Notes under the pieces: generated by a model
Databases searched by the model: none
Seen by the model: the letters and a program-made list of their open reading frames with translations, nothing else
What the model was told of the DNA's origin: nothing
Origin: an uncultured bacterium
GTDB lineage: Bacteria > Bacillota_I > Bacilli_A > RFN20 > CAG-826
Length of the DNA stretch: 64,000 nucleotides
Assembly: GCA_949297445.1 (NCBI GenBank)
Contig: CASFSS010000018.1
Coordinates: forward strand, 1-64,000
Direction: 5' to 3'
Shown here: in pieces, positions 4,892 to 44,968 of the stretch
Layout of the letters: each line of letters opens with the position of its first letter
How positions within the stretch are numbered: position 1 is the stretch's first letter
Program-made: the position numbers and the translations under genes

Positions 4892-7834
4892 CTAATATTC
4901 AAGCGAATCTTTCATTGATAATATACATGAAATAAAATTCGAAACGTTATATTTACGATAAATATTTTCATCAAGTAAAAAGTACTTGTCGCGAAAAAAC
5001 GGATTATCATAATCTAGCATGCCTTGATAAATGTAAACATTGCTCGGATTATAAACATCTATTCTTTTTAAGGCGGGCATATCCGCCACTATCACTTTTT
5101 TAGTGCTATAAAGCAATTCAATCAAATAATTTTTAACAATAAACGGATTATGTACATCTAATAATGATACATATTCGGCGTTTTTAATTAAATAAAAGGC
5201 ATCGCCTCGTCGACGAAGATATTTTGTCCCATCGTAATAATAGAACATTCCATCATTATTCGATAATGTGCTTACTAAATTATTGACGGCAAAATATCCA
5301 AGGTAAGGAACTTCTTTGGCGGCGTTGATTTTCTTTAAAAAATAAATGCTATTTTTACTTTTTAAAGTAAAGTATAAATAAGGCATAGATTTATCCATCG
5401 CCATTTTATCAAGCAAATAACGATTGGATGCAAATTGATCAATCGTTGTTAAATATTTTTTAGATCGATAATATCTTGTCGGCGCTACAAGATAAGCTTT
5501 ATCAAAAATTTTCAAAAAATATTTGCTTCGTCTATTAACGTTCCACTGCAAAGAAATTGACTGCATTAAAGGATGGGTATCTTTTAATAAAGCAATCATT
5601 CGTCCATCGAATATTCGCCCACCAAAAAGCAAAAAATAATCGAAACGATGGTATAAAGCTTGTTCAGCAATCTCTTCGATATAATAATCTCCTTTAAAAG
5701 CAATTAAGCGTGGAGATATTTTATATAAAATTTTTTCTAATTTATTGATTTTCACTTTGCTTGAACAACGCAAAACATAATAACCTCGATTGCGTAGTTC
5801 ACTTATAATTTCTTCAAGGTGATATACATCTTCGCTAGCGGAAATAAGCACTTTCGGTTGATCGGCAATCGCCGCATCTTCCATCGTCTTTTCATAGGGC
5901 ATAAACAAGTCATCTTTTCGAATATTCTTGGCAAAAATCTTAAGATAAAAATTATTAAAAACAGTCAAGAAAGGATATAGTCCAATGATTTTTATTAATG
6001 GTCTAATTGCTAACGTAACAAAAACGACTGTCAAAAAGGCTACAACAGGAATAATTATTGTCATCGATAACGAGGCATTGTCAAATGAAACAAAGGCAAT
6101 AAAAGTAACTAAAAACGAAAGAATAGAAAAGACTAAGTCTACCAAAGTTATTTCAACAAATACTTTATTAAGAGGCACGCCTTTTTTCCGATGACTTTTG
6201 CTTATCGAGGCAAAGAAAAGCGGAACTACTACCAAAAATAGTAACAGCAAAAAAGAAATGATTATAGTAGCCAAAATTGCACAATTATAAGTACCATCAA
6301 TCGTTAAATATATAAATGTGGCAAGTAATATACCTAAAACAATAGTAATGAAAAAATTAAATGTTTTAATGATGGGAAAATTAACATTATAATCAATTTC
6401 TAACGAATATTTTTGTTCATCAAAATATACAATTTCTTTTTGATAATATGGGTGCTGAATTTGATGATATCTAGCCAATAAAGGCACAACTGCAATTACC
6501 ATCACTATCACATATTCAGTGGATGTAACAAACATAACGGTCAATGTCTCCGACCACATGTAGATTGAAATGGCCAAAAAAACAAGAATGGTCCAAATTA
6601 CAATACTTTTATCTTTACTAAATACCTTAACCATTACATATATCAAATACGCAAATAAAATTATCGAAGCAATTACTAAAACGAAACCGCCATTAGCAAA
6701 AATTTGAAGATAACCATTATGCAAATATTGAGTACTAAAAGCAGCCTTACCCGATGATGAATAGTGAAGATTGGCAATTAAATTATTGATTGTTCCTAAG
6801 CCAACACCAAAAAAGAAATTGGCATTTTTAATAATCTCGAAAGCCATTGCCCAAATATACGCTCTAGAATCTAATGTGGATGAACTCGATTCGAAAATGA
6901 TGGAATCATAAAAATATTTAACAATTTTTAATAAACCGTCTTCTAAATAAAAAGAAGCAATCGACAAAGATATAAAAATTAGTACGAAATATATCACAAT
7001 TGATAAGGCAATAATATTTCTAACTTTATGAATTTTAAAAGTCGCAAAAAATCTATATAACCAGTAAATTAAAAATAGAAAAACGCTAATTATTATAGTT
7101 GTTTTACACAAGGTAAATAACATATTTATAAACATGAAAATTGCTACAATGTGCCAAAAAAATGATGGTCGCATTTCATTCAAATAAAAGGCGGCAAAAA
7201 TCATCAAAAGCAAAGCGAAGCCATAATTATTACCGTTTATCAGCAAAGACTTAACCTTTTCGAACTGGTATTTCTCTTGATCGCGAAAAATTTTTAAAAT
7301 TTCGATATACATTTCCCCTTCGGTTGCATAACTATAAATAATTAGCACTAAGCCAACGAGAAGAATGGTATAGAATAAATAATTTAATTGCTTTCGATAA
7401 TGAATTTTTTTAGGAAAAACAGCAAAAATAAAATAGGTCACTGCAACCATTACTGCACCTTGCAAAATGTAATAAATTCTATCTTCCATTGTTAAGGTTA
7501 AATAGGTGTAATAATTAACACCATCTAACGAAATGTACTCAAGATAGTTATCAAACGGCAAAGTTAAAATAGCGATTGCATTAAAAATAAAAATCAAAAC
7601 CATGATAATTACAAAAAAGTAATTTGGTCGCAGCCGATTATAACGATGTTCAAAATAAATTGTTAAAAAGAAAATTAAAGAAAAAATAAAAAAAATAATT
7701 GAATACTCTTGAATCGTAAAAGATCGGTCGTACGCTACCGCATCAAAAAAAACCAAATTTTGCATAAAATAGCAAGCAATAACTAACACGAAGTAGATTA
7801 GACTGTTTGTTAATAGTAATCTTTTATTAATCAT
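4892..7834 (-). CDS. O-antigen-ligase/polymerase-like membrane protein fused to a glycosyltransferase-like domain
   Basis: A 980-residue two-part protein. About residues 1-460 are a multi-pass membrane domain with the Wzy_C/O-antigen-ligase pattern (an FTLCKTT helix, then SRAYIWAM...FFGVGLG...LHNGYLQIFANGG, an arginine-rich large-loop signature). More membrane helices lie at about 485-660. Residues about 690-980 are a soluble cytoplasmic Rossmann-like region (KVLISASEDVYHLEEIISEL...) that resembles GT-B/CgeB-like glycosyltransferases only loosely. The protein at 42047-44968 has the same layout and shared segments, so they are paralogues. It presumably polymerises or ligates a glycan. The joining of ligase and transferase-like domains is unusual. 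It is divergent from the VanZ-Ig gene. Confidence 0.75.
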   Translation of the reverse strand: MINKRLLLTNSLIYFVLVIACYFMQNLVFFDAVAYDRSFTIQEYSIIFFIFSLIFFLTIYFEHRYNRLRPNYFFVIIMVLIFIFNAIAILTLPFDNYLEYISLDGVNYYTYLTLTMEDRIYYILQGAVMVAVTYFIFAVFPKKIHYRKQLNYLFYTILLVGLVLIIYSYATEGEMYIEILKIFRDQEKYQFEKVKSLLINGNNYGFALLLMIFAAFYLNEMRPSFFWHIVAIFMFINMLFTLCKTTIIISVFLFLIYWLYRFFATFKIHKVRNIIALSIVIYFVLIFISLSIASFYLEDGLLKIVKYFYDSIIFESSSSTLDSRAYIWAMAFEIIKNANFFFGVGLGTINNLIANLHYSSSGKAAFSTQYLHNGYLQIFANGGFVLVIASIILFAYLIYVMVKVFSKDKSIVIWTILVFLAISIYMWSETLTVMFVTSTEYVIVMVIAVVPLLARYHQIQHPYYQKEIVYFDEQKYSLEIDYNVNFPIIKTFNFFITIVLGILLATFIYLTIDGTYNCAILATIIISFLLLLFLVVVPLFFASISKSHRKKGVPLNKVFVEITLVDLVFSILSFLVTFIAFVSFDNASLSMTIIIPVVAFLTVVFVTLAIRPLIKIIGLYPFLTVFNNFYLKIFAKNIRKDDLFMPYEKTMEDAAIADQPKVLISASEDVYHLEEIISELRNRGYYVLRCSSKVKINKLEKILYKISPRLIAFKGDYYIEEIAEQALYHRFDYFLLFGGRIFDGRMIALLKDTHPLMQSISLQWNVNRRSKYFLKIFDKAYLVAPTRYYRSKKYLTTIDQFASNRYLLDKMAMDKSMPYLYFTLKSKNSIYFLKKINAAKEVPYLGYFAVNNLVSTLSNNDGMFYYYDGTKYLRRRGDAFYLIKNAEYVSLLDVHNPFIVKNYLIELLYSTKKVIVADMPALKRIDVYNPSNVYIYQGMLDYDNPFFRDKYFLLDENIYRKYNVSNFISCILSMKDSLEY

Positions 7835-16383: not shown

Positions 16384-17250
16384 TTATTTTTGTTTTGGCT
16401 CTATTTCCTTCCAAACTTTATGCATATTTGGATCAACGAAATATCGATATTTATCTGTCGAATAGCGACTATCAACCTTTGGTATCATGTAATCTTCTCC
16501 ATAAGAGCTCACTAACATATCGTTATAATCAATAGGAATCGGGAAATATCCTGTAACAAATTTTGCATATCGAACTTCAGCGAATGAACTAACATTAAAT
16601 ATTTTTTTATCAATTGGTCGACTAGAAAACATTTGACGCACTCGGTCATTGCAGCGTTCGCCATACTTTTCAGAATAAAAATCTATTTTTTTATTAATGT
16701 AACGTAAACTCACCGGCAAGAAAACGAATTTTAAACCAATTAAAGCAAGCTTTTTTATAAAAGTTTGGTCTTTAATCAATCTAGTTTTTACATACACAAT
16801 AAAATTGTACTTTTCCATTTTTTTGCGGAGTTTTTCAAATGTTTTTTGATCCGATGGAGTGTAATCTAAAACAAATATGTCAATGTGAACATGGTGGTTG
16901 TATTTTTTAGATAAAAGAAAACTGCTATAAACACCATTGACAATAATGCGAATAAAAGGATGAATGCAATTTTTGTCTTTTTGATAATATTCAGCAGTTA
17001 ATAGACCATTGCTATATTGCTCGATTTCATCAATAAATTCATAAAGTTTATTAAACTCTTCGCGCAAAACAACAGTATCTACGTCATCGTCCCAAGGAAT
17101 AAAACCTTTTTCGCGGATAGCGCCAAGCAAAGTGCCAAAAGCCAAAAAATATTTCACATTATGCTCTTTCATAAAATTGTCAAAAATGATCATAGCTTTG
17201 AACATAATTTGTTGTAATTCTACTAAGGTAATTTCTTCTTTATCCTTCAT
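16384..17250 (-). CDS. LicD-family phosphotransferase
   Basis: LicD proteins transfer a phospho-substituent (phosphocholine in pneumococcus, other phospho-alditols elsewhere) from a CDP-linked donor onto a cell-surface glycan. The 288-residue sequence has the family core AFGTLLGAIREKGFIPWDDDVD, with the metal-binding WDDDVD at 53-58. No licA, licB or licC choline genes are nearby. A cytidylyltransferase fusion lies at 24000-25448 in the same-strand run and could supply the CDP donor. The ribosome site GAGGTT is 11 bases upstream. The transferred group is unknown. Confidence 0.88.
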   Translation of the reverse strand: MKDKEEITLVELQQIMFKAMIIFDNFMKEHNVKYFLAFGTLLGAIREKGFIPWDDDVDTVVLREEFNKLYEFIDEIEQYSNGLLTAEYYQKDKNCIHPFIRIIVNGVYSSFLLSKKYNHHVHIDIFVLDYTPSDQKTFEKLRKKMEKYNFIVYVKTRLIKDQTFIKKLALIGLKFVFLPVSLRYINKKIDFYSEKYGERCNDRVRQMFSSRPIDKKIFNVSSFAEVRYAKFVTGYFPIPIDYNDMLVSSYGEDYMIPKVDSRYSTDKYRYFVDPNMHKVWKEIEPKQK

Positions 17251-17269: not shown

Positions 17270-18517
17270 CTAAATTTGTACTGATTCCTTTTTATAAAAT
17301 GGAATATTATTTGCAAAAGAGATAGCAAAAATTTGCCCATCATTTTCATTAGCAATTCCCATCATGCATGCCAAAATAATGTAATCTATTTTAATAGTAT
17401 AGTTAGAATAGAAAAATTGAATAAGAAATATTGCCATTGCAAACATGAGAAGCAATTTTCGCTCCAATCCTTTTTTGCTTAATACTTTTAAAGCAGGAAC
17501 AAAGATAAACAATTGAAATATAACAACTTCTAAAAAACCATAGTTAAACCATAATTCAATGATGTTGTCATGCGCAAAATGGCCGGAAAAAGAATAGTTG
17601 CCGAAACTAAATACCCCACCATATCCAAAAAATGGTCGTTTCAAAGAAAATTCTATTCCTTCCAAAAACAAAAATAGGCGCGGCTCATACGAACTAACAA
17701 TATCAAGAGAAAAAATGGCGGCAAAAGAATTCAAAAAACGCTCCCTTATATTTTCAAATGGCGGCAAAAATAATATACAAACAAAACATAATATCGCCAC
17801 GACAGAAATTAAAAGAGACCACTTTAATTTTTCGCGACCAAAAAATAAGAAAATTGCCAAAATCACTATAAATAACGATATCAATAAAGCGCTTCTACTA
17901 CCGGTTATAGAAATTAAAATAAAAGCAATCAATGCAAATAAAAGATTCCACAAACGCCTTTTTAAAAGACCGGCATAAATGTAATAACAAAAGAAATATA
18001 AAAAAACATATCCTACGACATTTAAATCGCCAAAATCTGATCCGATGCGTTCACCATTAAGCAATAAAATATCATCGAAATAGTAGGCAATGAAATAAAA
18101 TAAAAAACAAGCACCTGCTAATCCGAATATATGCAATAAAATATCGCGATATTCTTTGTGACGAAAAATTTGATAAAAAATGAAACAAGTCGCGCTTAAA
18201 AAGAAGACTGTTGTATCAAAATATACGACTCCATTAATAAGGCTACTAGCAAATATAATTACATTGAAAACTACGAGGAGAATGAAAAAGTAATCGACAA
18301 CAATTTTTTTATATAAAAACGCCCAAACCAATATTAATACGCCAGCTATAACATATAGAACTGTGTTAATCAAATTCCAAGGATATATGTAATTAAGCGC
18401 CGCCGTTACAAAAAATAAGAAAAACATGCTGACAAAAATCGCCACTTCAATAGTGACTTGTAATTTGGATTTGCCGAATGTAAAAGTGCAATACAAATTT
18501 TTAAGCATTGCTTTCAT
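17270..18517 (-). CDS. Wzy/O-antigen-ligase-like polysaccharide polymerase
   Basis: A 415-residue integral membrane protein with about ten to twelve hydrophobic helices. The ligase/polymerase signature is in the second half: an ITGSRSALL helix, a long loop with RLFLFLEGIEF...FFGYGGVFSFG, and AHDNIIELWFNYGFLE. This matches Wzy_C-type proteins, which join lipid-linked repeat units outside the membrane. It lies with Wzx, LicD and glycosyltransferases, so polymerase is preferred over ligase. Its 5' end overlaps the 3' end of the upstream gene by 17 bases, so they are cotranscribed. Confidence 0.8.
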   Translation of the reverse strand: MKAMLKNLYCTFTFGKSKLQVTIEVAIFVSMFFLFFVTAALNYIYPWNLINTVLYVIAGVLILVWAFLYKKIVVDYFFILLVVFNVIIFASSLINGVVYFDTTVFFLSATCFIFYQIFRHKEYRDILLHIFGLAGACFLFYFIAYYFDDILLLNGERIGSDFGDLNVVGYVFLYFFCYYIYAGLLKRRLWNLLFALIAFILISITGSRSALLISLFIVILAIFLFFGREKLKWSLLISVVAILCFVCILFLPPFENIRERFLNSFAAIFSLDIVSSYEPRLFLFLEGIEFSLKRPFFGYGGVFSFGNYSFSGHFAHDNIIELWFNYGFLEVVIFQLFIFVPALKVLSKKGLERKLLLMFAMAIFLIQFFYSNYTIKIDYIILACMMGIANENDGQIFAISFANNIPFYKKESVQI

Positions 18518-20255
18518 TTCTTTCGGCCCCCTTTATTTTGTTGTCTTTAAACCAACCAACAATAGGTACAATCGTAATTAGTAATAAAAATGTAATAATT
18601 GCTGTGGCAAACGATGCGAGACCACCAAATGAATTCACTAGCAAAAATGAACTCATACTATATAACAAAATACTTTGTGTGATATGAATTGTTAATGAAA
18701 CTAAAGCATATGGCGCAAAAACAAATAACGCCGCAATAAGTAGAAAAACATACAGTTTTGTGCCCTTATAAAGCGGATATATAGCATAAAAAATCAAAAC
18801 AAAACTTGCTATTGAAAATATAATAGCAAAAGTCATTAAAGCTATTTTCCCAGAAAGATTGTCACTTGGATAAAATAGTTGCTTAGTGTACAAATCGCTC
18901 AACAAGGTGAATTCCCTAACTTCCTCTAAGGCGCCATCAAGCAAGCGATAACCGATAAATTGATCGCCATCAGAAAAATAGGGAATAATTGAACTTTCCA
19001 ATAGCGACTGCGTATTAATATAGCTAGATGAAGGATCGAAACAAATTTTCGCGTAAAGATAATTGGAAATATAACTTAAATTTAGATATGCAAAATCGCC
19101 AAAAAAACTTTTTAATATAGGCGTATGTCCATAATCATCAACTAGAAAATTAGCAATCGAATAATCAAATTCATATTCGCCAATTTTCAATGTTACATGT
19201 TGATCAGGATTAGCAATATAATTTTCTAGTGTTTCGCCTTCTTCCATCACGTCTTCAAGAACCCATGTCGGTAAAAATAAACTTTTGCGATCATTATCAA
19301 GATAATCGTTTTCAATATGAAAAACGCGCTTAAGAGCAATTTTATTAAAGACATTATAAAGTATCGAATCTGGTTCAGAATTAAATGCGCAATATCCTAA
19401 ATCAGTTCCTGATGATATTAACTTAATGTCTTTTGTTTTTCCATTAGCAAAGGTGATTGTTATGTCGGAGAAGTCTCGCGCAAAAGCCTCAATATATAGC
19501 GGAACATATTTAGTGTCGCGAAATTCACTATACGAAACATAATAATAAGGTGTAAATGAATTATAGCCATATGCTTTAGACATAATTGCATTAGCGCCAT
19601 TGTCTCCTAAAATTTCAAGCGAATCTTTTTTAACATATTCACAGTGTGAATATTGTTGATCACTGTTATAAGACATTTTGCCTATATATTGGTAAGTGGA
19701 ATCTATTTGCGTTTCCACATTCAAGGCACCATATCCATAAAATAAGGAAGATGCAAAAATCCCTAAAACCATTGTTACTATAAACAAAAAGATGGTTTTT
19801 CTTTTAAAAATTTTAAATTGCGGATTTTTGGCTGAAGCTAATTCAAATTTTAAAGAACGATTTTTTATTTTTTCTTTTTGGCCAACAAACGCTTCATTGA
19901 GATTCGCTATATACGAATCATAGACAACATCATTATTTTTAGAAAATAAAATTATTGGCGTGCCAAATTCGTTATGAAAACATTCTAAATATTCCTTTGT
20001 GCTAAATAGTTCACTATCATCTAACACAAAAATTATTTTTTTGGTAAAATCCAAGCTTTTTGAATAAATGAAATTATATTTAAATTTATTTTTTTTATTG
20101 AACCATTTTTTACTATCCGAAGTTTTGATTAACAAAACATGCTTTTTATAAATTTTGCTAGTTTCCGTCAAAAGTTGATTAAACAATTCAAAATCTGCTG
20201 CATAATATACACATTTGTTTAATAAAATTTGTTTATTATTAATCGTTATCAACAT
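18501..20255 (-). CDS. unknown membrane protein, possible degenerate ABC-ATPase/FtsX-like permease fusion
   Basis: I do not recognise the family. Starting at the ATG at 20255 (a TTG at 20312 would overlap the upstream gene), the product has 584 residues. Residues 1-150 are soluble. A membrane helix follows at about 170-190, then an extracytoplasmic region of about 290 residues, then three to four C-terminal helices. The N-terminal KKIIFVLDDSELFSTKEYLECF resembles a Walker B/D-loop region, and the helix-large loop-helices plan resembles FtsX/MacB permeases, but no Walker A is present. Compare the protein at 29565-30776. It sits between the Wzy-like gene and a glycosyltransferase in one operon. 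Confidence 0.6.
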   Translation of the reverse strand: MLITINNKQILLNKCVYYAADFELFNQLLTETSKIYKKHVLLIKTSDSKKWFNKKNKFKYNFIYSKSLDFTKKIIFVLDDSELFSTKEYLECFHNEFGTPIILFSKNNDVVYDSYIANLNEAFVGQKEKIKNRSLKFELASAKNPQFKIFKRKTIFLFIVTMVLGIFASSLFYGYGALNVETQIDSTYQYIGKMSYNSDQQYSHCEYVKKDSLEILGDNGANAIMSKAYGYNSFTPYYYVSYSEFRDTKYVPLYIEAFARDFSDITITFANGKTKDIKLISSGTDLGYCAFNSEPDSILYNVFNKIALKRVFHIENDYLDNDRKSLFLPTWVLEDVMEEGETLENYIANPDQHVTLKIGEYEFDYSIANFLVDDYGHTPILKSFFGDFAYLNLSYISNYLYAKICFDPSSSYINTQSLLESSIIPYFSDGDQFIGYRLLDGALEEVREFTLLSDLYTKQLFYPSDNLSGKIALMTFAIIFSIASFVLIFYAIYPLYKGTKLYVFLLIAALFVFAPYALVSLTIHITQSILLYSMSSFLLVNSFGGLASFATAIITFLLLITIVPIVGWFKDNKIKGAERNESNA

Positions 20256-20259
20256 GCTT

Positions 20260-21354
20260 TTATTTCTTATTTTCCAAAAATAATTTGATATATGCTTCAG
20301 CGGTAAAATCAATTGAATATTTCTTTGAAGAAGTTACGGCATTATCGGCAATGTTTTGATATGAAGAAGGATTGTTGATAATGTCATCGATTAATTTCAC
20401 ATAATTATCAACGCTATCATTTGCCACCAAAAAACCATTTTTACCATCATCGATAATTGTCCGATTACCAACGCAATCGCTTGCCACCATTACACATCCC
20501 GAAGATAAAGCTTCAATAATAGCAATAGACTTCATTTCCCAAACAGAGCATAAAAAAGATATTTTTGCATTGGATAAAATTTTTGGAATTTCACTATTAG
20601 GCAATGAATCCTTTATTAAAACATTTTGGGTCAGATTCTTATCTTTAACTAGTTCTTTGATAGTTTCTTTTAATGGACCTACACCATATAAATAAGCTCG
20701 AAAATTCTCGTTTTTACGCACAATTTTTTCAAAAATTTCAACAGCCAACTTATGGTTTTTTTGTTCGGTAAAACGAGCAAACATGACTAAGTCGGTCGTT
20801 CGTTTTGTTAAAGGAATGGTTGATTCAAAGCGTGAACAATCTATTCCGTTTTCTACTAGCGGAACATAATCCAATCCATAATATTTTTTTACGTTATCAT
20901 CATCAATAATGTTAACCGGAATAGCGTATTTATTTCGAAAAATATATTTCATCAATAAATCCGAAATTTTGCCACCTTCTAAGCCTGGTAAAGTATGAAT
21001 AGTATGAAGCACTGTGATTTTTTTATACAATTGCTTTTTTCTTATTGCTAAAAATGTTGTAATAAGAGCATTATTTTCTGTATGAATAAAACGAACATCA
21101 TTTTTAATAATAAATTCGCGTAGCAATTTAGCGCAATTAATATCGACTCCTCTTTTTTTATGAAAAAAAGACACATTAATGCCATTATTTTTTAATGTAC
21201 TTAAAAACGAATCGTTCGCTTCGTCATATAAAACGGCCACGTGCAAATTTACTTTTTTATTTAACGCCACACTTAAATTGACAGCAAACGTTTCGGCACC
21301 GCCAATTGGTTTTAGTGAGCTAATCACTTCTAATATAGTAATTTTCTTATCCAT
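20260..21354 (-). CDS. GT4-type glycosyltransferase
   Basis: A 364-residue GT-B retaining glycosyltransferase. The N-terminal SLKPIGGAETFAVNLSVAL loop is typical of GT4. The donor-binding half has RFTEQKNHKLAVEIF and the E-x7-E element around AIIEALSSGCVMVASDCVGN. It acts at the cytosolic face on a lipid-linked acceptor; donor and acceptor are unknown. AAGGT lies 10 bases before the ATG. It ends 4 bases before the next gene in the minus-strand run. Confidence 0.88.
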   Translation of the reverse strand: MDKKITILEVISSLKPIGGAETFAVNLSVALNKKVNLHVAVLYDEANDSFLSTLKNNGINVSFFHKKRGVDINCAKLLREFIIKNDVRFIHTENNALITTFLAIRKKQLYKKITVLHTIHTLPGLEGGKISDLLMKYIFRNKYAIPVNIIDDDNVKKYYGLDYVPLVENGIDCSRFESTIPLTKRTTDLVMFARFTEQKNHKLAVEIFEKIVRKNENFRAYLYGVGPLKETIKELVKDKNLTQNVLIKDSLPNSEIPKILSNAKISFLCSVWEMKSIAIIEALSSGCVMVASDCVGNRTIIDDGKNGFLVANDSVDNYVKLIDDIINNPSSYQNIADNAVTSSKKYSIDFTAEAYIKLFLENKK

Positions 21355-22560: not shown

Positions 22561-23997
22561 TTAATTATCAACACGCATTAATTTTTTGAAATCTTTGGGA
22601 TGTAAACCAATGACGAAGTTCAAACAAATTAAAGCTACACCCACTATCGCTGAAATCGAAAACCAGAGCCAGTAATTTTGAATATATTGCAAAAAGAAGA
22701 TTGCAGCAAAATTAACCGCAAACACAACAAACATTCCTAAAAATGTTTTGAAATTTAAAGGCATTCGCTTAAAAATAACCCAAACTTCAATGTACTTCAC
22801 TATATTAACAATTGTTGTTGATAATAAAAGAGCAACGCAAAGACCATAGACAACATCATATGAAAATGCAAAACAAAAAACAACAAATGTCCCAATATTA
22901 ATTATTCCATTAATGAGTTCTATTTTTTCTTTGCCGGTCATCGACAACATTGTGCCGGTAGGGCCAGAGAGTTCTGACATTGCGTGCCGTAAGGCCAAAA
23001 TGACAATAATCATTGGATAAAGCGTGTATGATTCGCCAAAAAACAGCAAAAAATTCTCACCTTGTGTGAAAAGAAAAATGTAGAAGGGAATACAAACATA
23101 CAAGCAAACTCTTGTGCTCATTCGATAAACATCAATAAGTCCGTCGAGATTATTTTCACGCTTTAATTTTGCAAAAACAGGTTGAATCAACTTTGTAACG
23201 ACACCAGTAATTACAGTCAAAAGATTTAAAATTGTCAATGATATGGAAATAATGCCTAACACAGATGAATCATTAAAAAAAGCACCTTGAAAAACTTTGG
23301 TTAATTCTGTTGTTAAAGAATAAGTAATAGTTACGCCAAAGAAAAAAGTAATACTAATGTATTCTTTCTTGGTCAATGTAAAAGAAAACCTTTTAAAATA
23401 CCGCTTAATTAAATAAACGGCAATTAGACCATAGACAAGTAAATAATAAGCTAAATAATTGTCGCTAAATTGTTGTAAAGTTCCCATCCATAAGAAAACA
23501 ATCGTCAACAAAAAAATAACAAATTTCGGAATAATATTTTCAATAATAATGGAATCGTAATATTTTCCAACACCTTGAAAATATGATGATCCCAACGTGT
23601 TTATGGCCATTACCAAAGCAACCAAAATTATAAAAATTGTAGTAGATAAATCACCTTTTATATCAGTTGTATAGTTATATAAAATGTAAAAAAGTATCGG
23701 AGCAACATAGGCAACAATTAGGAAAAAAATAGTAAAAACTTTATTCATTAACTCGCCGTTATGAATAGGATTTTTAGCCTCACGCACAACGAACCAACTC
23801 AAGCCAAAAACGAAGAAAGAAGAAAACGTTGTAGCGATAGAAACCAAGTATTGCAAATCACCAAACACCGCAGAACCTAAATATTTCGCCAAAACGTAAT
23901 TGAATCCAAACCCAAAAGCAGCACTCAATATAGAAAGAATAAACGGCAAAATATTTTTTGCTTTTTTTAATTTTTGCAATTTCGCAGGTGTCTTCAT
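22561..23997 (-). CDS. Wzx-type lipid-linked oligosaccharide flippase
   Basis: A 478-residue integral membrane protein of the MOP/polysaccharide-export superfamily with about 14 predicted helices. The N-terminal FGFGFNYVLAKYLGSAVFGDLQYLVSI resembles the Wzx/RfbX start, and the LSGPTGTMLSMTGKEK loop is family-typical. It would move undecaprenyl-linked repeat units across the membrane for the Wzy-like polymerase at 17270-18517. It starts 2 bases after the AsnB-cytidylyltransferase fusion gene, so they are cotranscribed. Confidence 0.88.
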   Translation of the reverse strand: MKTPAKLQKLKKAKNILPFILSILSAAFGFGFNYVLAKYLGSAVFGDLQYLVSIATTFSSFFVFGLSWFVVREAKNPIHNGELMNKVFTIFFLIVAYVAPILFYILYNYTTDIKGDLSTTIFIILVALVMAINTLGSSYFQGVGKYYDSIIIENIIPKFVIFLLTIVFLWMGTLQQFSDNYLAYYLLVYGLIAVYLIKRYFKRFSFTLTKKEYISITFFFGVTITYSLTTELTKVFQGAFFNDSSVLGIISISLTILNLLTVITGVVTKLIQPVFAKLKRENNLDGLIDVYRMSTRVCLYVCIPFYIFLFTQGENFLLFFGESYTLYPMIIVILALRHAMSELSGPTGTMLSMTGKEKIELINGIINIGTFVVFCFAFSYDVVYGLCVALLLSTTIVNIVKYIEVWVIFKRMPLNFKTFLGMFVVFAVNFAAIFFLQYIQNYWLWFSISAIVGVALICLNFVIGLHPKDFKKLMRVDN

Positions 23998-23999
23998 TT

Positions 24000-25448
24000 T
24001 TACTTATGTTTTATTTCGTTTACTAATTTTGTTGACGATATACGATTTGTATATGGCAAATAAACGACATCAACCCCGATGGTCGCTAAATCTTCTTCAT
24101 ATTTATTCCATTTTTCGGTGCCTTTCCAATCGTCGCCGACGACAATTGCGTTCGCGCCATATTTTTTACATGCTTTAACTTTGTCCATATCTTCTTGAAC
24201 AACTGCTTTCCAAACAAACGGCAAGGCGCGGACAATCCTTATTCTATCTTCAAAACAAATAATAGATTGTTTTCCTTTATAACTAACTAAATCATCGGAT
24301 GTAACGCCAACAACTAATTTGTTGCACATCTTACTAGCGCGTTTAATTACATTAAGATGGCCAATATGAAACATATCGTAAACGCCGGTAGTGTAAATGG
24401 TGTCATATTTATTAAAACATTTATTTTTGTATAAATACAAAAAATGATCAATGGAATATACAATCCATCTTTGCTCATCGGTCGAACAAAGTTCATAAGC
24501 GTTCTCTTTAAACTCAACATTTTTAATTGGACCATATAATTTATTCCAAATTTTTAACGGACGTGGAAGAGGATACTTTCTTGGCACAAATAATTCACCG
24601 ACACGATGTTTAAATAAAGTGCGCAAAAAATATTTTTCTTCTCCGTTACGAATTCTTTCATAATCTAATTCAAATTTAACATTTAAATATTCATAAGGAG
24701 CTAAATAGTTGATATTTGCTAGTTTAAAAGCATTGGAAAAATATTTAATTGTCGATTCGCCATATAGTCCTGATAAAAACCGATTAGTTTCAAAAAAATC
24801 TTTGCCACAATATTCTTTATAATAATCAGCCGACTGCTCAGGATTTTTTAAAACCAAAGAAGGCTCCACAAAGGTAAATCGTTTAATGAATTCTTCATTA
24901 GTCCATTTGCGAGACATTAAATTAAAAAGTCCACCAAACGCACAATCGGCGCCCGAACCAGTTATTAAATTTTCTAATCCAAAATCTAATGCTCTAAGAG
25001 CCATTTTATATAAACCGATTTCAATGGAAGAAAGCGGTTCACCTTTTTGAAGCATTAAATCGTCTTGAAAGTCTAAAACATCTTGGAAAGTGACGGGAAC
25101 TTCTACTAAACGAAGGCCAAATTTTTCAGCATAAATTTTTGCTTGTTTTACCTCGTCGACACCAACTGTTTCAGGATATTTTAAAGTAAAAGCAATCGTT
25201 CCTTTTGGGCAATAAGAAGATAGTAAAGCGGAATCGATACCACCACTTAAACATATACCTGTCTTACTAAAATCAATTTTTGAAAAATATTCTTTCAAAT
25301 ATTTGTCTAAATCTTCTTCACAAGATATGTCAGTCTTTTTTGTTGTATCAATTAATAAATCAATTTTAGAATCAAAGGGCGTTGTGTCGCGCGGTAAATC
25401 TCTATACACCAAAAATGTGGATATACATTTGTTAATCGAATCATTCAT
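24000..25448 (-). CDS. fusion of asparagine-synthetase-like ligase and TagD-like cytidylyltransferase
   Basis: A 482-residue two-enzyme protein. Residues about 1-300 match the synthetase domain of AsnB: an AsnB-like lead-in (TFLVYRDLPRDTTPFD), the PP-loop SGGIDS at 68-73, and TGSGADCAFGG near 160-171. The N-terminal glutaminase domain is absent. Residues 348-482 are a glycerol-3-phosphate cytidylyltransferase-type domain with HIGH-like H361-I-G-H364, VVGDDWKGTEKW, and RISSTKL near 469-475. Both active sites look intact. A strong GAAGGAG (25456-25462) sets the start. With Wzx directly downstream and LicD in the run, I infer synthesis of an amidated or amide-linked CDP-activated substituent for the glycan. 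The substrate is unknown. Confidence 0.85.
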   Translation of the reverse strand: MNDSINKCISTFLVYRDLPRDTTPFDSKIDLLIDTTKKTDISCEEDLDKYLKEYFSKIDFSKTGICLSGGIDSALLSSYCPKGTIAFTLKYPETVGVDEVKQAKIYAEKFGLRLVEVPVTFQDVLDFQDDLMLQKGEPLSSIEIGLYKMALRALDFGLENLITGSGADCAFGGLFNLMSRKWTNEEFIKRFTFVEPSLVLKNPEQSADYYKEYCGKDFFETNRFLSGLYGESTIKYFSNAFKLANINYLAPYEYLNVKFELDYERIRNGEEKYFLRTLFKHRVGELFVPRKYPLPRPLKIWNKLYGPIKNVEFKENAYELCSTDEQRWIVYSIDHFLYLYKNKCFNKYDTIYTTGVYDMFHIGHLNVIKRASKMCNKLVVGVTSDDLVSYKGKQSIICFEDRIRIVRALPFVWKAVVQEDMDKVKACKKYGANAIVVGDDWKGTEKWNKYEEDLATIGVDVVYLPYTNRISSTKLVNEIKHK

Positions 25449-25495
25449 AATTGCACTCCTTCATGCCCATAAGCACAAAAAATAATAATCTTTTT

Positions 25496-25526
25496 ATAAA
25501 AAAAATCAACAGCGTAATGCGCTGTT
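25496..25526 (-). terminator. Rho-independent terminator after the GT2 gene
   Basis: On the minus strand AACAGCG, loop CATTA, CGCTGTT (25508-25526), followed by GATTTTTTTT. It separates the GT2 gene from the AsnB-fusion/Wzx genes. Confidence 0.85.
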
Positions 25527-25556
25527 TAACATCGCTGAAATAGATGTGAAATTTAT

Positions 25557-26336
25557 TTATCGAACATTTCGATATTTTTTTAAGCCGTAAAATGCCCACC
25601 TAATAACACAAAACCAACTGTAAATAACATTAAGATTTTGTGTTTTTCGATAGACGTAATACATATGTTTGATAAGTTTTAATTTATTTGATGACTTACT
25701 TCCAGCATGAATAATATAAGTCGCTAAAACTTGTTGATTGCCTTTTGCAACATAGCCTTTTTTTAAAATATCGAGCCAAAAAACATAATCTTCAGCTTTT
25801 TTAATGTTTTCGCAAAAATAAACTTCTCCGATGACGCTTTTGTCATACATTGTTGTCAAGCACGATAAAGGATTACCTTTTAATGCCGTCTTATAATCTG
25901 TTGATTTAGGAACAATAAAATCAGTACATGTATGCTCGGCTTTCCTTCGATAAGAAGCAGAAATTAATGGTCCGTTTTCCTCCATAAATTTTATTTGAAA
26001 TTCCAAATAATTATCATCGAGCATATCGTCGGAGTCCAAAAAAGTTATATATTTGCCATTTGCATGTTTGAGACCAATGTTTCTAGCGGCCGCAGTTCCA
26101 CTATTAGTGTCTGTCTTATACACCTTAATGCGTGAATCACAATCTGATAATTCTTTTGCTAACCTATAAGAATCGTCGGTTGAACAATCATCAATGATGA
26201 GCCATTCCCAGTTGGTAAATGTTTGATTTAAAACACTTTCATAAGTTTGTCTTAAGTAATTGGCAGTTTGAAATGAAGGCGTGATGATTGTCACAAGCGG
26301 TTTCAAATTTTCATTATCAACTTTAAGTTTATTCAT
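25557..26336 (-). CDS. GT2-family glycosyltransferase
   Basis: A 259-residue inverting GT-A glycosyltransferase. N-terminal LVTIITPSFQTANYLRQTYESVLNQTF, the nucleotide-binding IIDDCSTDDS, NSGTAAARNIGLKHANGKY and the metal-binding LDSDDM are all present; KKAEDYVFWLDIL carries the probable ED catalytic element. There is a single domain with no membrane helices. It has its own promoter upstream and a terminator downstream, so it is transcribed alone. Sugar specificity is unknown. Confidence 0.9.
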   Translation of the reverse strand: MNKLKVDNENLKPLVTIITPSFQTANYLRQTYESVLNQTFTNWEWLIIDDCSTDDSYRLAKELSDCDSRIKVYKTDTNSGTAAARNIGLKHANGKYITFLDSDDMLDDNYLEFQIKFMEENGPLISASYRRKAEHTCTDFIVPKSTDYKTALKGNPLSCLTTMYDKSVIGEVYFCENIKKAEDYVFWLDILKKGYVAKGNQQVLATYIIHAGSKSSNKLKLIKHMYYVYRKTQNLNVIYSWFCVIRWAFYGLKKYRNVR

Positions 26337-31981: not shown

Positions 31982-31983
31982 TT

Positions 31984-38740: not shown

Positions 38741-40058
38741 ATTTCAAGTTCAAAATGTCGACATTAAGACTTCGCAAGTCGAAGACAATTTAAGTAGAAT
38801 TTCCTTTGACGAAAAAACCGATCAAACTATTTTAGAAACTAATGTTGAATTAAACGAAGAAATTAAAAGCAATATTTATATTAAAGCAAAGCGCTTGATT
38901 CGCCTAATTATAAAATGGTGTTGGAGCCTCTTAATTTCCTTTCTTTACCTATTTAGATTTAACAAAAATAAAACTGGCGATATCAACCAACCAAGAATAG
39001 TCCAATGCGTTCCGACTTTAATAAAAGGAGATGCAATTGGGAATGATGTCGAAGAAATTGCTAAAGAATTAGATAGACTCAACTACCGCAATATAATTGT
39101 CACAATCAACACTTTAAAGACAAACCACAATAAAGTTGTTCCGCTTTTAAATTATTGGCCGAAAAAAGATGACATTATAATTTACCATATGTGCATTGGC
39201 ACACCGCTATCTAAATTTGTAAAAAAAGCCAAGGTCGCACGCAAAATAATGCTTTATCATAACATTACTCCAAGCAAATACTTTTTGAATAACCATCATG
39301 CCTTTATGGCGGCTAAAAGGGGTCGTGAAGAATTGGCGGCGTTAAAAGATTATATTGATGTAGCCTATGGTGATAGTTCCTATAATAAACAAGAATTAGA
39401 TAGCTTAAATTATAAAAATACTGGCGTTTTGCCGGTTTTTTACCTCGATAATGATCTTAAAGAAATTGAAATTGATCCTTTAACTAAAGAAAAATATGAC
39501 GATGGTTTAACCAACATATTTTTTGTCGGTCGAATCTCTTTTAACAAATGTTATGGAGACATCATTAAGACATTTTATATTTATCATAAATATTTTAATC
39601 CAACATCGCGCTTAATCTTGGTGGGTAAGGAAGTTGATCCTGCCTATAAAATGTTTATTGATACACTGATTGAAAAGGCCGATATGAAAGAATCTGTTTT
39701 CCTTGAACATCAGATTCACTTACAAGAATTGGCGGCCATTTATACATGTGGCAACTTGTTTTTATGTGAGAGTGAACACGAAGGTTTTTGCGTTCCTTTG
39801 CTCGAAGCTATGCATTTTAACAAAATAATTTTGGCTTATAATTCTAGCGCTATTCCGGATACACTCGGCGATGCTGGCGCTCTATTTAATTGCAAAAATC
39901 ATTATTACATTGCTTCGTTGATGGATTTGCTTTTAAAAGACAAGGCAATTGAAAAAACTATGCTTATGCACGGCAAAAAAAGATTAAACTATTTTTCATA
40001 TAAAAACGTCGCTAAACAATTCGATGAATTTGCTGATAAATATTTTAAAATCGACTAA
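38724..40058 (+). CDS. GT4 glycosyltransferase with N-terminal membrane-associating extension
   Basis: A 444-residue paralogue of the protein at 36471. The shared segments are RIVQCVPTLIKGDAIGNDV, IMLYHNITPSKYF, NIFFVGRISFNKCYGDIIKTFYIYHKYFNP and CESEHEGFCVPLLEAMHF. It carries about 85 extra N-terminal residues, acidic and then a basic-hydrophobic stretch (AKRLIRLIIKWCWSLLISFLYLFRF reduced here to its character), which probably anchors it to the membrane. A strong AAAGGAGA precedes the start inside the upstream gene (17-base overlap). It is the last gene of the operon and overlaps manA convergently by 4 bases. Confidence 0.87.
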   Translation: MIKCPEFQVQNVDIKTSQVEDNLSRISFDEKTDQTILETNVELNEEIKSNIYIKAKRLIRLIIKWCWSLLISFLYLFRFNKNKTGDINQPRIVQCVPTLIKGDAIGNDVEEIAKELDRLNYRNIIVTINTLKTNHNKVVPLLNYWPKKDDIIIYHMCIGTPLSKFVKKAKVARKIMLYHNITPSKYFLNNHHAFMAAKRGREELAALKDYIDVAYGDSSYNKQELDSLNYKNTGVLPVFYLDNDLKEIEIDPLTKEKYDDGLTNIFFVGRISFNKCYGDIIKTFYIYHKYFNPTSRLILVGKEVDPAYKMFIDTLIEKADMKESVFLEHQIHLQELAAIYTCGNLFLCESEHEGFCVPLLEAMHFNKIILAYNSSAIPDTLGDAGALFNCKNHYYIASLMDLLLKDKAIEKTMLMHGKKRLNYFSYKNVAKQFDEFADKYFKID

Positions 40059-40936
40059 AGCGTCACTAATAAATATTCGACATCACCGGTAATGGAATAT
40101 CCACCATGACGCGCACTAATAAAGATCGAATCGCCTTCTTTAAGAGATATTTTTTCCCGCCCACTAACTAAAATGCCGTCACCATCAACAATCAAAATAT
40201 AATGGAAACTATGCTCGTCAACAAATTTATATTCGCTGCCATATAAACGATGACGTTTGACATCAAAAAAACGGCAACGAATTAATTCGCCTTCGATATT
40301 TCTATACATTTTTGTAATTGAATAGTGATCTAACCTAGCGCACTCCACCGCTTCTTTAATATGGAGTTTGCGAGGATTGCCGTCAGAATCCAAACGACCA
40401 TAATCATATAGACGATAAGTTACGTTCATGTTTTGTTGAATTTCCACCAACGTTATCCCCTTACCGATGGCATGAATAGTTCCTGGTTTAATAAAATAAC
40501 AATCGCCCGGGGAGACACGCACTTTATTTAAATAATTGGTGATTGTGCCATTAAGCAAATACTCTTCCAATTGCTCCTTGGTAATGTCCTCTTTTAAGCC
40601 TAAATAAATCGATGAGCCTTTTTCGGCTGAAAGGATATGCCAAAACTCAGTTTTGCCAACTGGATGATTTTGAATCGATAAATCTTCTTGTGCATTAATT
40701 AGTTTAACCAAAATAGGAAATTTGCCTTCATAATCATCGGAAATGATACCAGGATTTTCTTTAAAATAATCTTTTAATGTTTTTGTGTCGTTTTCGATTG
40801 GCGAATTATCGTCACCCAAGACTGCTAATACCCATGCTTCAGCAATATTGTCCAAAGCATCTTCACCATAAATATTATTGAGGTAACGCCCACCCCATAG
40901 ATAATGTTTGTAAATTGGCTTTAAGCGAAATATCAT
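40055..40936 (-). CDS. manA: mannose-6-phosphate isomerase, class I
   Basis: Interconverts fructose-6-phosphate and mannose-6-phosphate, supplying GDP-mannose synthesis. At 293 residues it is the short Firmicutes form. The zinc site is visible in IQNHPVGKTEFWHIL and IKPGTIHAIGKG, with the family blocks YLWGGRYL, FPILVKLINAQEDLS and LVEIQQNMNVTYRLYDYGR. It overlaps the glycosyltransferase upstream by 4 bases and converges with the rhamnan operon, so transcripts would be antisense at their ends. Confidence 0.93.
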   Translation of the reverse strand: MIFRLKPIYKHYLWGGRYLNNIYGEDALDNIAEAWVLAVLGDDNSPIENDTKTLKDYFKENPGIISDDYEGKFPILVKLINAQEDLSIQNHPVGKTEFWHILSAEKGSSIYLGLKEDITKEQLEEYLLNGTITNYLNKVRVSPGDCYFIKPGTIHAIGKGITLVEIQQNMNVTYRLYDYGRLDSDGNPRKLHIKEAVECARLDHYSITKMYRNIEGELIRCRFFDVKRHRLYGSEYKFVDEHSFHYILIVDGDGILVSGREKISLKEGDSIFISARHGGYSITGDVEYLLVTL

Positions 40937-42042
40937 TGATTGTTGCCTCGATTAGCGGAATAATCACCATAACATTCTACTACGAAATGCTTGATTTTTT
41001 TTACAAAATTGTCATTACTAAACTTTAAAGCATGCTGACGAATGTAGGAATAATCAAAGTTAGTTTTTTCAAATTTAGCAAGCGCTTCTAATAATGATGG
41101 AACACTTTGATTAGAAAAATAGATGCCTGTTTTTCCATCGATAACAGTATCTAAAACACCACCTCTACCATAACAAATTACCGGTTTGCCCATTGCCATA
41201 GCTTCGACGGGCGTAATCCCATAATCTTCCAAAGCCGGAAAAATCAGGGCGCGGCATCTACCCATTACCTCAACCATTTCTTTATCGGAAAGTCGACCAC
41301 GAAAATTAACATATTCGTTGGCTAATTTAACTAATTTTTCTTTCTCTTCACCTTCGCCCACAACTTCTAAATGTCGTTTCGATTCAGCGCAAGCCCGAAC
41401 CGCCAAATCAAATCGTTTATAGCCGACTAGACGCGATAACACCAAGTAATAATTGTCGTTTACCGTCGATAGATTAAATCTATCTAATTCAATGCCTGGA
41501 TTAATAACGACTGAATCGCGATTATAATATTTTTTTATCCGCACCTTAACCTCATTAGAATTAGCGATAAAGTAGTCGACTCTTTTGTTGGACTTTAAAT
41601 CGACATGACGCATATAGGCAAGTAATAATCTCGCTAATGGCCGTTTGTACCAACTCAAAGTCGATAAATATTCTTTCTTAGCAATATAAACATAACGCAT
41701 CGGGGTATGACAAAAACAAATATGAATGGCTCCCTTAGGGATTTTAACCATCTTTGCGCAACTGCTCGACGAGGATAAAACAACATCGCAAGGCTCAATT
41801 TTTAATTTATGAAATGCACGCGGCATGAAGGGGAAATATTTTTTATGATTGCTAATCGATTCTTTTTTGCCTTGCAAAAATGTTGTAACTATTTTTTGTT
41901 TTTGTAAAAAAGGCGATAAGTTTGAACGGTTTAAAACCGAGGTGTAAATGGTTGAACCAGGAAAGGCCGCTAAAAAATCCGACACGACTTTTTCAGCCCC
42001 GCCCATGTTTGTTAGCCAATCATGCACAATAACAACTTTCAT
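40933..42042 (-). CDS. GT4 glycosyltransferase, mannosyl/rhamnosyltransferase-like
   Basis: A 369-residue GT4 enzyme beginning HDWLTNMGGAEKVVSDFLAAFPG, with ICFCHTPMRYVYIAKKEYL, a pattern common in WbpZ/WbaZ/MtfC-type mannosyl- and rhamnosyltransferases. LVLSRLVGYKRFDLAVRAC and LIFPALEDYGITPVEAMAMGKPVI form the donor site. It lies between manA and the large fusion, with a 4-base overlap and a 4-base gap. The assignment to a GDP-sugar donor is inference. Confidence 0.87.
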   Translation of the reverse strand: MKVVIVHDWLTNMGGAEKVVSDFLAAFPGSTIYTSVLNRSNLSPFLQKQKIVTTFLQGKKESISNHKKYFPFMPRAFHKLKIEPCDVVLSSSSSCAKMVKIPKGAIHICFCHTPMRYVYIAKKEYLSTLSWYKRPLARLLLAYMRHVDLKSNKRVDYFIANSNEVKVRIKKYYNRDSVVINPGIELDRFNLSTVNDNYYLVLSRLVGYKRFDLAVRACAESKRHLEVVGEGEEKEKLVKLANEYVNFRGRLSDKEMVEVMGRCRALIFPALEDYGITPVEAMAMGKPVICYGRGGVLDTVIDGKTGIYFSNQSVPSLLEALAKFEKTNFDYSYIRQHALKFSNDNFVKKIKHFVVECYGDYSANRGNNQ

Positions 42043-42046: not shown

Positions 42047-44968
42047 TTATGATAATAATTTTTCGATGAATTTTTCTTTGGAATTATTTTCTAAAATAAC
42101 GCCACTATAATCGTCGTAGTTCGAATCCATAAAGAAGTCACCTGCAAAATTGATGTGGTCTTCCTTGAAGAAAATATAAATATTATTGGCCGAATAATAC
42201 TGGAAGGTTTTTGCCAAGGTATTGTTGGTGATAATTTTCTTTTTTAGTAAATAAATATTTACAAAATCGATATTTGAAATATTGTCACTGCTAGAGACAT
42301 CAACAAAATATTTAGCACGAGCAATCGAGCGAAAAACGGTTTCATTAAAGAAAGAAGGTACATAAGTAATTTTATCAGCGTATTTTCCGAGCGTTTTATT
42401 AATCTCTTTTAAGAACTTTTCACGCTTCTTTAACGACAATTTAATAATGATATTTCCTCTAGTGTATTTCGAATAAAAGTCATCTAAAGTTTTCTTTAAA
42501 ATCGGTAAATCGTTCTTCTTACCTGAACATATACAAGTAAAATCGTCGGTCGCTTCAACATCGATGTATTTCAAAATGTCGTCTAAATAATATGAACTGA
42601 GTAAATTAATTTTTTCATTAAAGGAATCTATTTTATAAAGCGAATAGCATTGATCAAAAGATTGACACAAAAACTTTGAATAAGGATATTTGCTCATTTT
42701 ATATGGAATGTAATAAATAAATTTAGCGTCAGATTGGTAATAGCGAAGATCATTTATCATGTCGATAGTAATCCCTCGACCCATCGTCACAATAATATAA
42801 GAATATTTTTTCAATAATGAATCATATAATATGTCGTCAATAAAAATGCGACTGCTTTCAAGATTGGCGCGCCACGGCATTATATTATTCACTTTATGAA
42901 TAAAATTATTAATTAATTCATCATAAACAACAACATGATAGCCTTTATTTTCTAACGCCGCTCTTAAATTTGAACGATATAGATCGTCGCTAGAAATTAA
43001 TAAAATTTCTTCCCGCCCAATCTCGTAGTCTGCACCATGCGGTGTCTCGTGTTGGCTCATCGGATCGTTTTGAATTGCTAAATAAAGATGATTTAGCCAA
43101 AAATTATTTAATCGATCAATCATATTGTCAGTATTTGTAAAGACTCTAAATCCCGGCACTGCCGTCAATAAATAATAGAAGAGAATGCTAACGACAAAAT
43201 AAGGCAAAACAATCAGCAATATAGTATAGTCAGAAACAAAATAGTAGAAAGCTGCAACAATGCCTGATACTAATAAAAAAGTCGCGACATAAAATACCCA
43301 AACATCGGCAAAATAATACTTATAATCAATCTTATTTTTCTTGGTGGCAAAATTATATATAAATTGGACAAGTAACGGCAAACATAGATAAATAGCGACG
43401 ATTACACCAAAAATACTCCAGATAGTAATTTCGTTAAAACCGTATTGATTAATCAAAAAGAAAGTACTGCCAACAAAAGTAGCGACGATTGGTGTAAATA
43501 CAAAATAAATGGTCTTGGCTAAAGAAAATTTTTCAGCATAAATTTCTAATTTTGGCCTTTCAACTTTTTCTTTTTGCAAAATGATTTCTTTGCGAACTAA
43601 CGGATGATTATATTGATAATATCGTGACAGTAAAGGAACGGTGACAAGAAACGATAAGAAAATTGTATCTGGTGTTTTGGCAAACAATAAAGGCGCGCTT
43701 TCAAAAAGCATATAAACAAGAGACGATGTCAACATCAAAAAAGAAAGAACAACCAAACTTTTTTCTTTTTTAAACATTTTTCCCATCACGTAATACAAAT
43801 ATGTAATGGCAAAAATAAAGACAATGAGCAAAATTACTCCTCCATCGCCCATCAATTGCAAATAACCATTATGCGGGAACGAATTATTTTCGGCTAATGG
43901 ATCTAAGGTTGTATAACTTAACAATAAATTATTAAAAACACCATATCCCGCTCCAAAAAACATATACACAAGGTTGGAATTTAAAATGAGCATCACATCG
44001 CCCCAAATTGCTAGGCGCGAACTAAATGTGTCAAACGCTCCTCCAAAAAGACGAATAATTGTTTTATTTATAAATAAAAAGAAACCGTTCGGAATAAAAA
44101 ACGATAAAACTGTAATGATTGCTAATATCAAAAAAAGTGATGCAACAATCGAGATAGTAATGACATTGCGTTTTTTGTGTTCTTTATAAGTGATAAAAAA
44201 TCTAGCAAGTAAATATAAAATGATAACGATTCCGCCTAATAACAAAGTCGTTTTACACAAAGTAAAAATCATGTTTGTGTATAAGAACAAAGCGATAATA
44301 TACCAGTAAAATTTTGGTCGAACATGATGCATATATAAACTGGCTAAAATAAAGATAAATAGAAGGAAACCATAATTATTACGATGATCAAATAAAGATT
44401 TAACTGTCAAGGCATACGGGTCATCGCTACTTAAGTTAAAAAAGAAATCTAAATAATTACGCCACTCGACGACATAACTATAAATAAGGAAAGCCGCCAA
44501 AAGTAGAAAGCCGAAAATTATAATTAAATCGAATTGCTTTTGGTAAAGAAAATGCCGCGGCAAAACATACATAAATAGGTAAAAAAGAGTAAAGGTTACA
44601 ATTGAAAATAAGAAATAATAAGCTTTTTCATCAAGGGTAAAGGTTAAAACATCATCGCCCCACTCCGTCACGATAATCATCGTATCAGGATTATAAACAA
44701 GGGAAACAAATGAACATATACCTAATACAAAAAGTAGCAAAAGAAATAAAATATTCGTTTTATAGCGATTATATTTTCGATCGACAAAGGAAGCAACGAC
44801 TAATGTCCCAATCAACAAGGTTGTTACTAACGCATATTCATTGGTAGTTAAAGAACGGTACACATTATTTACATCAATAACGGCAGCATTACATAAAAAA
44901 TACGCTGCGACAATCACCGCTATATAAAGAAGAATGTTTGTAATATATAGACGCTTTAAATCTTTCAA
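42047..44968 (-). CDS. second O-antigen-ligase/polymerase-like membrane protein fused to a glycosyltransferase-like domain
   Basis: A 973-residue paralogue of the protein at 4892-7834, sharing layout and landmark segments: FTLCKTTLLL, FSSRLAIWGDVMLIL, FFGAGYGVFNNLLL and PHNGYLQLMGDGG. About 12 helices form the ligase/polymerase part, four more lie at about 500-620, and residues about 670-973 are cytoplasmic. The C-terminal part has a GT-B-like first half (EILLISSDDLYRSNLRAAL) and a second half (TDDFTCICSGKKNDLPILK...) with no clear catalytic motif. Its gene lies immediately after the initiating sugar transferase. Confidence 0.75.
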   Translation of the reverse strand: MKDLKRLYITNILLYIAVIVAAYFLCNAAVIDVNNVYRSLTTNEYALVTTLLIGTLVVASFVDRKYNRYKTNILFLLLLFVLGICSFVSLVYNPDTMIIVTEWGDDVLTFTLDEKAYYFLFSIVTFTLFYLFMYVLPRHFLYQKQFDLIIIFGFLLLAAFLIYSYVVEWRNYLDFFFNLSSDDPYALTVKSLFDHRNNYGFLLFIFILASLYMHHVRPKFYWYIIALFLYTNMIFTLCKTTLLLGGIVIILYLLARFFITYKEHKKRNVITISIVASLFLILAIITVLSFFIPNGFFLFINKTIIRLFGGAFDTFSSRLAIWGDVMLILNSNLVYMFFGAGYGVFNNLLLSYTTLDPLAENNSFPHNGYLQLMGDGGVILLIVFIFAITYLYYVMGKMFKKEKSLVVLSFLMLTSSLVYMLFESAPLLFAKTPDTIFLSFLVTVPLLSRYYQYNHPLVRKEIILQKEKVERPKLEIYAEKFSLAKTIYFVFTPIVATFVGSTFFLINQYGFNEITIWSIFGVIVAIYLCLPLLVQFIYNFATKKNKIDYKYYFADVWVFYVATFLLVSGIVAAFYYFVSDYTILLIVLPYFVVSILFYYLLTAVPGFRVFTNTDNMIDRLNNFWLNHLYLAIQNDPMSQHETPHGADYEIGREEILLISSDDLYRSNLRAALENKGYHVVVYDELINNFIHKVNNIMPWRANLESSRIFIDDILYDSLLKKYSYIIVTMGRGITIDMINDLRYYQSDAKFIYYIPYKMSKYPYSKFLCQSFDQCYSLYKIDSFNEKINLLSSYYLDDILKYIDVEATDDFTCICSGKKNDLPILKKTLDDFYSKYTRGNIIIKLSLKKREKFLKEINKTLGKYADKITYVPSFFNETVFRSIARAKYFVDVSSSDNISNIDFVNIYLLKKKIITNNTLAKTFQYYSANNIYIFFKEDHINFAGDFFMDSNYDDYSGVILENNSKEKFIEKLLS

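Follow-up and report, generated by a model that had tools for sequence, protein, structure and literature searches.

Two three-part fusion genes and their surroundings

The window analysed here, a 64,000-nucleotide stretch of DNA from an uncultured bacterium, contains two genes for membrane proteins of the same three-part layout. The first, P1 (4892..7834, (-)), encodes 980 residues from an ATG start and without an internal stop. Its membrane domain, of the Wzy/WaaL type (residues 1-465; 6440..7834, (-)), was recognised from a Wzy_C match and from a fold match to WaaL (7TPG). An extra bundle of four membrane helices follows (residues 487-608; 6011..6376, (-)), as judged from hydropathy, the helices of the structural model, and the charge pattern. 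The chain ends in a cytoplasmic domain of the WaaS/CpsH family, a predicted pseudo-glycosyltransferase (residues 656-980; 4895..5869, (-)), assigned using hhalign and a partial match to NF053598. The second gene, P2 (42047..44968, (-)), encodes a 973-residue paralogue of identical layout that shares 28% identity with P1 over residues 4-952; its predicted pseudo-glycosyltransferase domain lies at 42050..43036, (-). An ordinary Wzy of 415 residues (17270..18517, (-)) completes the set: these three are the only Wzy_C proteins of the genome, and all fall inside the window.

A preliminary description of this DNA had read P1 as a fusion of a membrane ligase or polymerase, a helix bundle, and a cytoplasmic domain. 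The fusion is real, and the P1 frame is intact. The domain that it called Rossmann-like is indeed cytoplasmic, but it measures approximately 325 residues rather than the 290 or so first proposed, forming a two-part alpha/beta domain (approximately residues 656-980). The full-length second copy in the window was absent from that description. Each of the two further genomes of the genus that were examined carries one P1 and one P2 orthologue, intact and syntenic. Based on the paralogue and on these orthologues, the layout is not a product of chance or of assembly.

The order of genes around both copies is conserved. P1 is followed by a flavodoxin-like gene, as it is in both other genomes. Directly upstream of P2 lies a gene for an initiating sugar transferase (PF02397; 44969..45658, (-)), directly downstream one for a GT4 glycosyltransferase (40933..42042, (-)), and the conserved cluster ends with a mannose-6-phosphate isomerase-like gene (40055..40936, (-)). 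The order initiator-P2-GT4-isomerase is kept in three genomes of the genus. This adjacency suggests that the initiator and the GT4 enzyme are putative partners for P2. Elsewhere in the window, a gene divergent from P1 (8048-9691, (+)) encodes a bacterial Ig-like domain and a C-terminal VanZ domain, one open reading frame (24000-25448, (-)) joins asparagine-synthase-like and cytidylyltransferase-like domains, and a 603-residue protein lacking a Pfam match is encoded between the ordinary Wzy and a GT4 gene (18501-20312, (-)). A LicD gene lies at 16384-17250.

The distribution of the fusion was evaluated using a survey of NF053598 in overlapping samples of the order (279 genomes), the class (395), and the phylum (392). 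In all three, members scoring above the cut-off were free-standing proteins of 298-383 residues, and the fusion was seen only in the genus of the window. A search for genes sharing the entire architecture, which the preliminary description had proposed, recovered the paralogue and the orthologues of two other genomes of the genus. Similarly, a scan of genome contigs with a few patterns, which sampled rather than exhausted them, found the complete architecture in the two genus relatives only; the first such scan and both scans of viral contigs yielded no relative. One weak match (L027) was dropped, being a different protein that appeared phosphatase-like by eye. Such fusions were not described in the part of the literature that was searched, which is no proof of novelty. 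On a Bacteroides plasmid (L111), a WaaS/CpsH gene directly follows a gene of the O-antigen ligase family without being fused to it; by analogy, neighbours of this kind could give rise to such a fusion.

The membrane domain, the helix bundle, and sidedness

Pfam recognised a single domain in P1, Wzy_C (PF04932), at residues 230-388 with 47.4 bits (cut-off 31.7); the score for P2, 33.1 bits, also exceeded the cut-off. A full-length model of P1 was built from 11 sequences (whole-model pLDDT 62.7). Its best structural match was WaaL, 7TPG (Z 15.2, rmsd 5.6, 355 of 403 residues), followed by the SEDS proteins RodA (Z 10.5) and FtsW (Z 8.9). O-antigen ligases (O-Lig), Wzy, and SEDS proteins form one clan, GT-C1 (PMC10920833). 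In hhalign comparisons of the membrane part with single WaaL or Wzy sequences, probabilities were low, though the motifs line up. Thus, the assignment to WaaL rests on the fold match.

In O-antigen ligases, roles have been given for two arginines, which bind the diphosphate, and one histidine, which activates the acceptor (PMC10920833). His372 of P1 (6719..6721, (-)), in an outer loop, aligns with this histidine; it is invariant in the six fusions and conserved in at least 90% of 21 relatives. Arg324 (6863..6865, (-)) aligns with the second arginine in E. coli WaaL and is invariant in the 21 relatives as well as the six fusions. The first arginine was found in none of the fusions: its column holds Lys244 (7103..7105, (-)), invariant in all six, and Arg in WaaL and in the 415-residue Wzy. 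The conserved arginine and histidine residues of O-antigen ligases, which the preliminary description had looked to as a mark of the class, are therefore kept at two positions and replaced by lysine at the third. They do not separate ligase from polymerase here, as the ordinary 415-residue Wzy likewise carries the Arg and the His. Considering sequence and model together, the membrane domain of P1 is of the O-antigen-ligase/Wzy class, with a predicted ligase or polymerase activity.

Between the two larger domains (residues 466-655), hydropathy, model helices, and charge pattern identified four membrane helices and an amphipathic helix. In P1, the even-numbered, inner loops bear positive charges, whereas loops 13 and 15 have none. 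This distribution places the C-terminus in the cytoplasm; by the same positive-inside pattern, the loop with Arg324 and His372 is outside and the last domain inside. Accordingly, the earlier proposal that a ligase/polymerase-type domain and one from a glycosyltransferase family share a single chain but lie on opposite sides of the membrane was supported, the sidedness by the charge rule. The same bacterial family contains relatives of approximately 700 residues in which additional membrane sequence follows the Wzy domain and the last domain is missing. Six Wzy_C proteins of approximately 620-705 residues (L009, L010, L015, L017, L025, and L026), likewise extended by a further membrane part, are encoded outside glycan clusters beside genes that by eye appeared smpB-like and folC-like, several of them also beside a gene that appeared Sir2-like by eye. 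From this setting, they look like a housekeeping orthologue.

The cytoplasmic domain: family, donor site, and selection

Pfam, PHROGs, and PDB sequence searches with the last domain gave nothing usable, and an NCBIfam search with the whole of P1 returned no match; the family emerged through free-standing relatives. Specifically, a profile of the six fusions led to free-standing proteins of approximately 330 residues in glycan gene clusters, and these homologues belong to NF053598 (WaaS/CpsH glycosyltransferases; 94-269 bits). Aligned with the free-standing proteins using hhalign, the last domain matched over its whole length (308 columns, probability 99.6, E 8.7e-24). Direct matches to NF053598 were E 7.2e-9 for P2 (positions 2-317, 34.4 bits) and E 3.5e-8 for P1 (partial, the last 68 positions, 32.8 bits), both falling short of the curated cut-off of 60 bits. 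A separate model of the last domain was poor (pLDDT 51, Z <8); its secondary structure fits two Rossmann-like halves, and many GT-B enzymes were among its full-span structural matches. From the profile comparisons, the assignment of the last domain to the WaaS/CpsH glycosyltransferase family is firm, as are the architecture and the families of the other parts. Of the preliminary idea that the end of P1 would match a GT-B family with catalytic residues, the match to a glycosyltransferase family held, and the donor-site residues did not.

Nine conserved polar or glycine columns were picked from an alignment of 26 free-standing proteins. The stand-alones retain seven to nine of these, the fusions one to three. 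A quartet of residues, G248, R252, E255, and T265, was placed at the donor site by the general GT-B pattern, not by a solved structure of the family. Among the 26 stand-alones, the Arg occurs in 25, the Glu in all, and the Thr in 25; each of the six fusions retains one residue of the four. Eight relatives that took no part in the choice of columns, seven plasmid-borne proteins and E. coli WaaS, retain three or four, in agreement with the 26. Arg252 is replaced by Asp in P2 and by Tyr in P1, and Glu255 is Asn in P2 (3/3 sequences for both changes) and kept in P1 as E906. Gly248 and the WD/FD motifs are gone from all six fusions, and P2 retains Thr265 and Asp159. Relative to the family, the middle of the P1 domain is shortened, and its alignment is uncertain. 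Because the model is too poor to show the cleft, the donor-site loss is read from sequence alignment. On this reading, catalysis has likely been lost, and the active cytoplasmic glycosyltransferase envisaged in the preliminary description gave way to a domain from which the donor-site residues of its free-standing relatives are missing in six of six fusions. Residual or altered activity is possible, given the residues that P1 (E906) and P2 (Thr and Asp159) keep.

The last domain is under purifying selection. Its dN/dS, from one genome pair per copy, was 0.213 in P1 and 0.084 in P2, and values for the membrane domain were 0.08-0.11. In P2, no other part of the protein is conserved as well as the last domain, at 50% identity versus 43% for the membrane domain. 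Based on the low dN/dS and this conservation, the domain is not in decay. Trees of both domains pair P1 with P2 as sisters (support 99/96 and 94/93), a placement compatible with a single fusion that was later duplicated once.

The host and the predicted role of P1 and P2

The LCP domain (PF03816) was found neither in the whole genome nor in 96 genomes of the family, and seven control genomes were positive. MraY/WecA-type transferases and penicillin-binding transpeptidases were likewise not found in this genome, which is rated 100% complete. Judged by this gene content, the host is most likely wall-less, so that there is probably no wall to which a glycan could be attached. Peptidoglycan-deficient families have been reported among the Bacilli (PMC10868615). 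The preliminary observation that the window holds no LytR-CpsA-Psr enzyme thus extends to the entire genome. Its corollary, that P1 substitutes for such an enzyme, fails as stated: LCP is missing, but so are MraY/WecA and the transpeptidases. In a host that is most likely wall-less, a strict substitute, attaching glycan to peptidoglycan, is unlikely; anchoring to a lipid or protein is possible. Machinery for export is present in one cluster of the window (22561-36059), which combines flippase-type genes (22561-23997 and 28026-29495) with an ABC-type Wzm/Wzt pair (33940-34788 and 34791-36059, the latter with a Wzt C-terminal domain). For mycoplasmas, canonical Wzx/Wzy- and ABC-type glycan pathways were reported as not retrieved (PMC11658790).

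Within the order, 15 Wzy_C proteins with long frames were read and their partner domains assigned using Pfam. The fusions from other genomes (L091-L104) comprise 761-1213 residues. Two join Wzy_C to a Polysacc_synt flippase (L094 and L096, with flippase matches under the curated cut-off), one to a flippase and a pyruvyltransferase (L091, all three domains above the cut-off), four to GT4 domains (L097, L098, L099, and L102), and two to other glycosyltransferase-like domains (L093 and L100, weak PF13524 matches). The glycosyltransferase domains of L093, L099, and L100 were tried as homologues of the last domain of P1 and P2 and gave no significant match. P1 and P2 resemble seven of these proteins (L091, L094, L096-L099, and L102) in joining a polymerase or ligase to parts of glycan assembly, but the partner families differ, and none of the tested partner domains is a homologue of the one in P1 and P2. 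This dissimilarity suggests that such fusions arose repeatedly, seemingly independently within one wall-less lineage. In two loci (L100:2618-4903(+) and L103:2507-4795(+)), the domain behind Wzy_C weakly resembles glycosyltransferases (PF13524, E 0.004) and is not related to WaaS/CpsH; these loci may hold a second kind of fusion with a pseudo-glycosyltransferase.

The explanation we favour, at slightly better than even chances for the whole of it, is that P1 and P2 are outward-facing ligases or polymerases that carry a cytoplasmic pseudo-glycosyltransferase for docking or control. On the outside of the wall-less cell, both would polymerise a polyprenyl-diphosphate glycan or transfer it, this outer reaction being carried out by Lys244, Arg324, and His372, which belong to the outer loop and neighbouring membrane residues. 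The WaaS/CpsH-derived domain, behind the four-helix bundle, would no longer transfer sugar. As its donor-site residues are lost yet it remains under purifying selection, it is probably a docking or control module. It may tether the enzyme to the glycosyltransferases that assemble the lipid-linked unit in the cytoplasm, which for P2 would be the adjacent initiator and GT4 enzyme, or it may recognise, ahead of export, either that unit or its nucleotide sugar. We infer for these proteins that the domain has stopped catalysing, that it serves docking or control, and what chemistry takes place outside. A bolder extension, which we consider rather doubtful, is transmembrane coupling: the dead domain would sense the finished lipid-linked unit or nucleotide sugar inside and gate polymerisation or attachment outside, as part of a wider habit of the lineage for one-chain Wzx-Wzy-glycosyltransferase machines.

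The same evidence allows other readings. If the donor site were remodelled rather than dead, the proteins would be bifunctional, adding the last sugar inside and polymerising or ligating outside. Full-length homology to a glycosyltransferase family, the strong selection on P2 (dN/dS 0.084), the retention in P1 of the Glu that is invariant in stand-alones, and the Wzy_C fusions to ordinary GT4 domains in the same family of bacteria all speak for this reading; we nevertheless think it unlikely, as all six fusions lack Arg252, Gly248, and the WD/FD motifs, Glu255 is Asn in every P2, and the NF053598 scores fall below the family cut-off. The opposite reading, that the domain is a functionless, decaying remnant of a chance gene fusion, would account for the lost active-site residues and the shortened middle of the P1 domain. 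It is very improbable: the domain is intact in two copies across three genomes, both dN/dS values are low (0.084 and 0.213), and in P2 it is conserved better than the membrane domain.

Regarding the outer reaction, P1 and P2 may be ligases that fix a glycan, after its export, to a surface protein or a lipid of the membrane, in the place of LytR-CpsA-Psr enzymes. This reading is compatible with the favoured explanation, and we give it somewhat short of even chances. WaaL is the top fold match and His372 is present as in O-antigen ligases, but Wzy polymerases of the clan have the same fold, and the plain 415-residue Wzy has both Arg and His, making the histidine non-diagnostic. With one ordinary Wzy among three Wzy_C proteins, the other two are candidate ligases; the Wzm/Wzt pair in the window would need one, and neither this genome nor the 96 family genomes have LCP genes. 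Against it, peptidoglycan is probably unavailable as an attachment site.

P1 and P2 share with WaaL (CAZy GT121; 7TPG) and Wzy (clan GT-C1) the fold, the Wzy_C domain, and the outer-loop Arg and His; unlike these, they have Lys for the first Arg, the extra bundle, the glycosyltransferase-derived cytoplasmic domain, and a host that is most likely wall-less. Their last domain is homologous over its entire length to WaaS/CpsH proteins (NF053598), including E. coli WaaS, but whereas those of 298-383 residues are free-standing, it is fused, lacks the donor-site signature, and scores below the cut-off. GtfB, of the GtfA-GtfB pair, is a non-catalytic GT-B partner protein. By analogy, a glycosyltransferase fold that binds instead of catalysing would act in the same way in P1 and P2, although GtfB pairs with a cytoplasmic enzyme and their domain is fused to a membrane ligase or polymerase.

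To our knowledge, how the assembly of units inside is coordinated with polymerisation outside in Wzx/Wzy systems is an open question, usually framed in terms of separate proteins touching one another. Where nature joins a polymerase or ligase in one chain to a glycosyltransferase or flippase, the fusion suggests which parts are neighbours and offers a single protein to purify and solve. Unlike what is reported for mycoplasmas (PMC11658790), wall-less Bacilli can keep the full Wzx/Wzy- and ABC-type glycan machinery. P1 and P2 would be of greater interest still were the coupling role true, and a glycosyltransferase domain that is conserved yet likely dead points to a directly testable role in control or docking.
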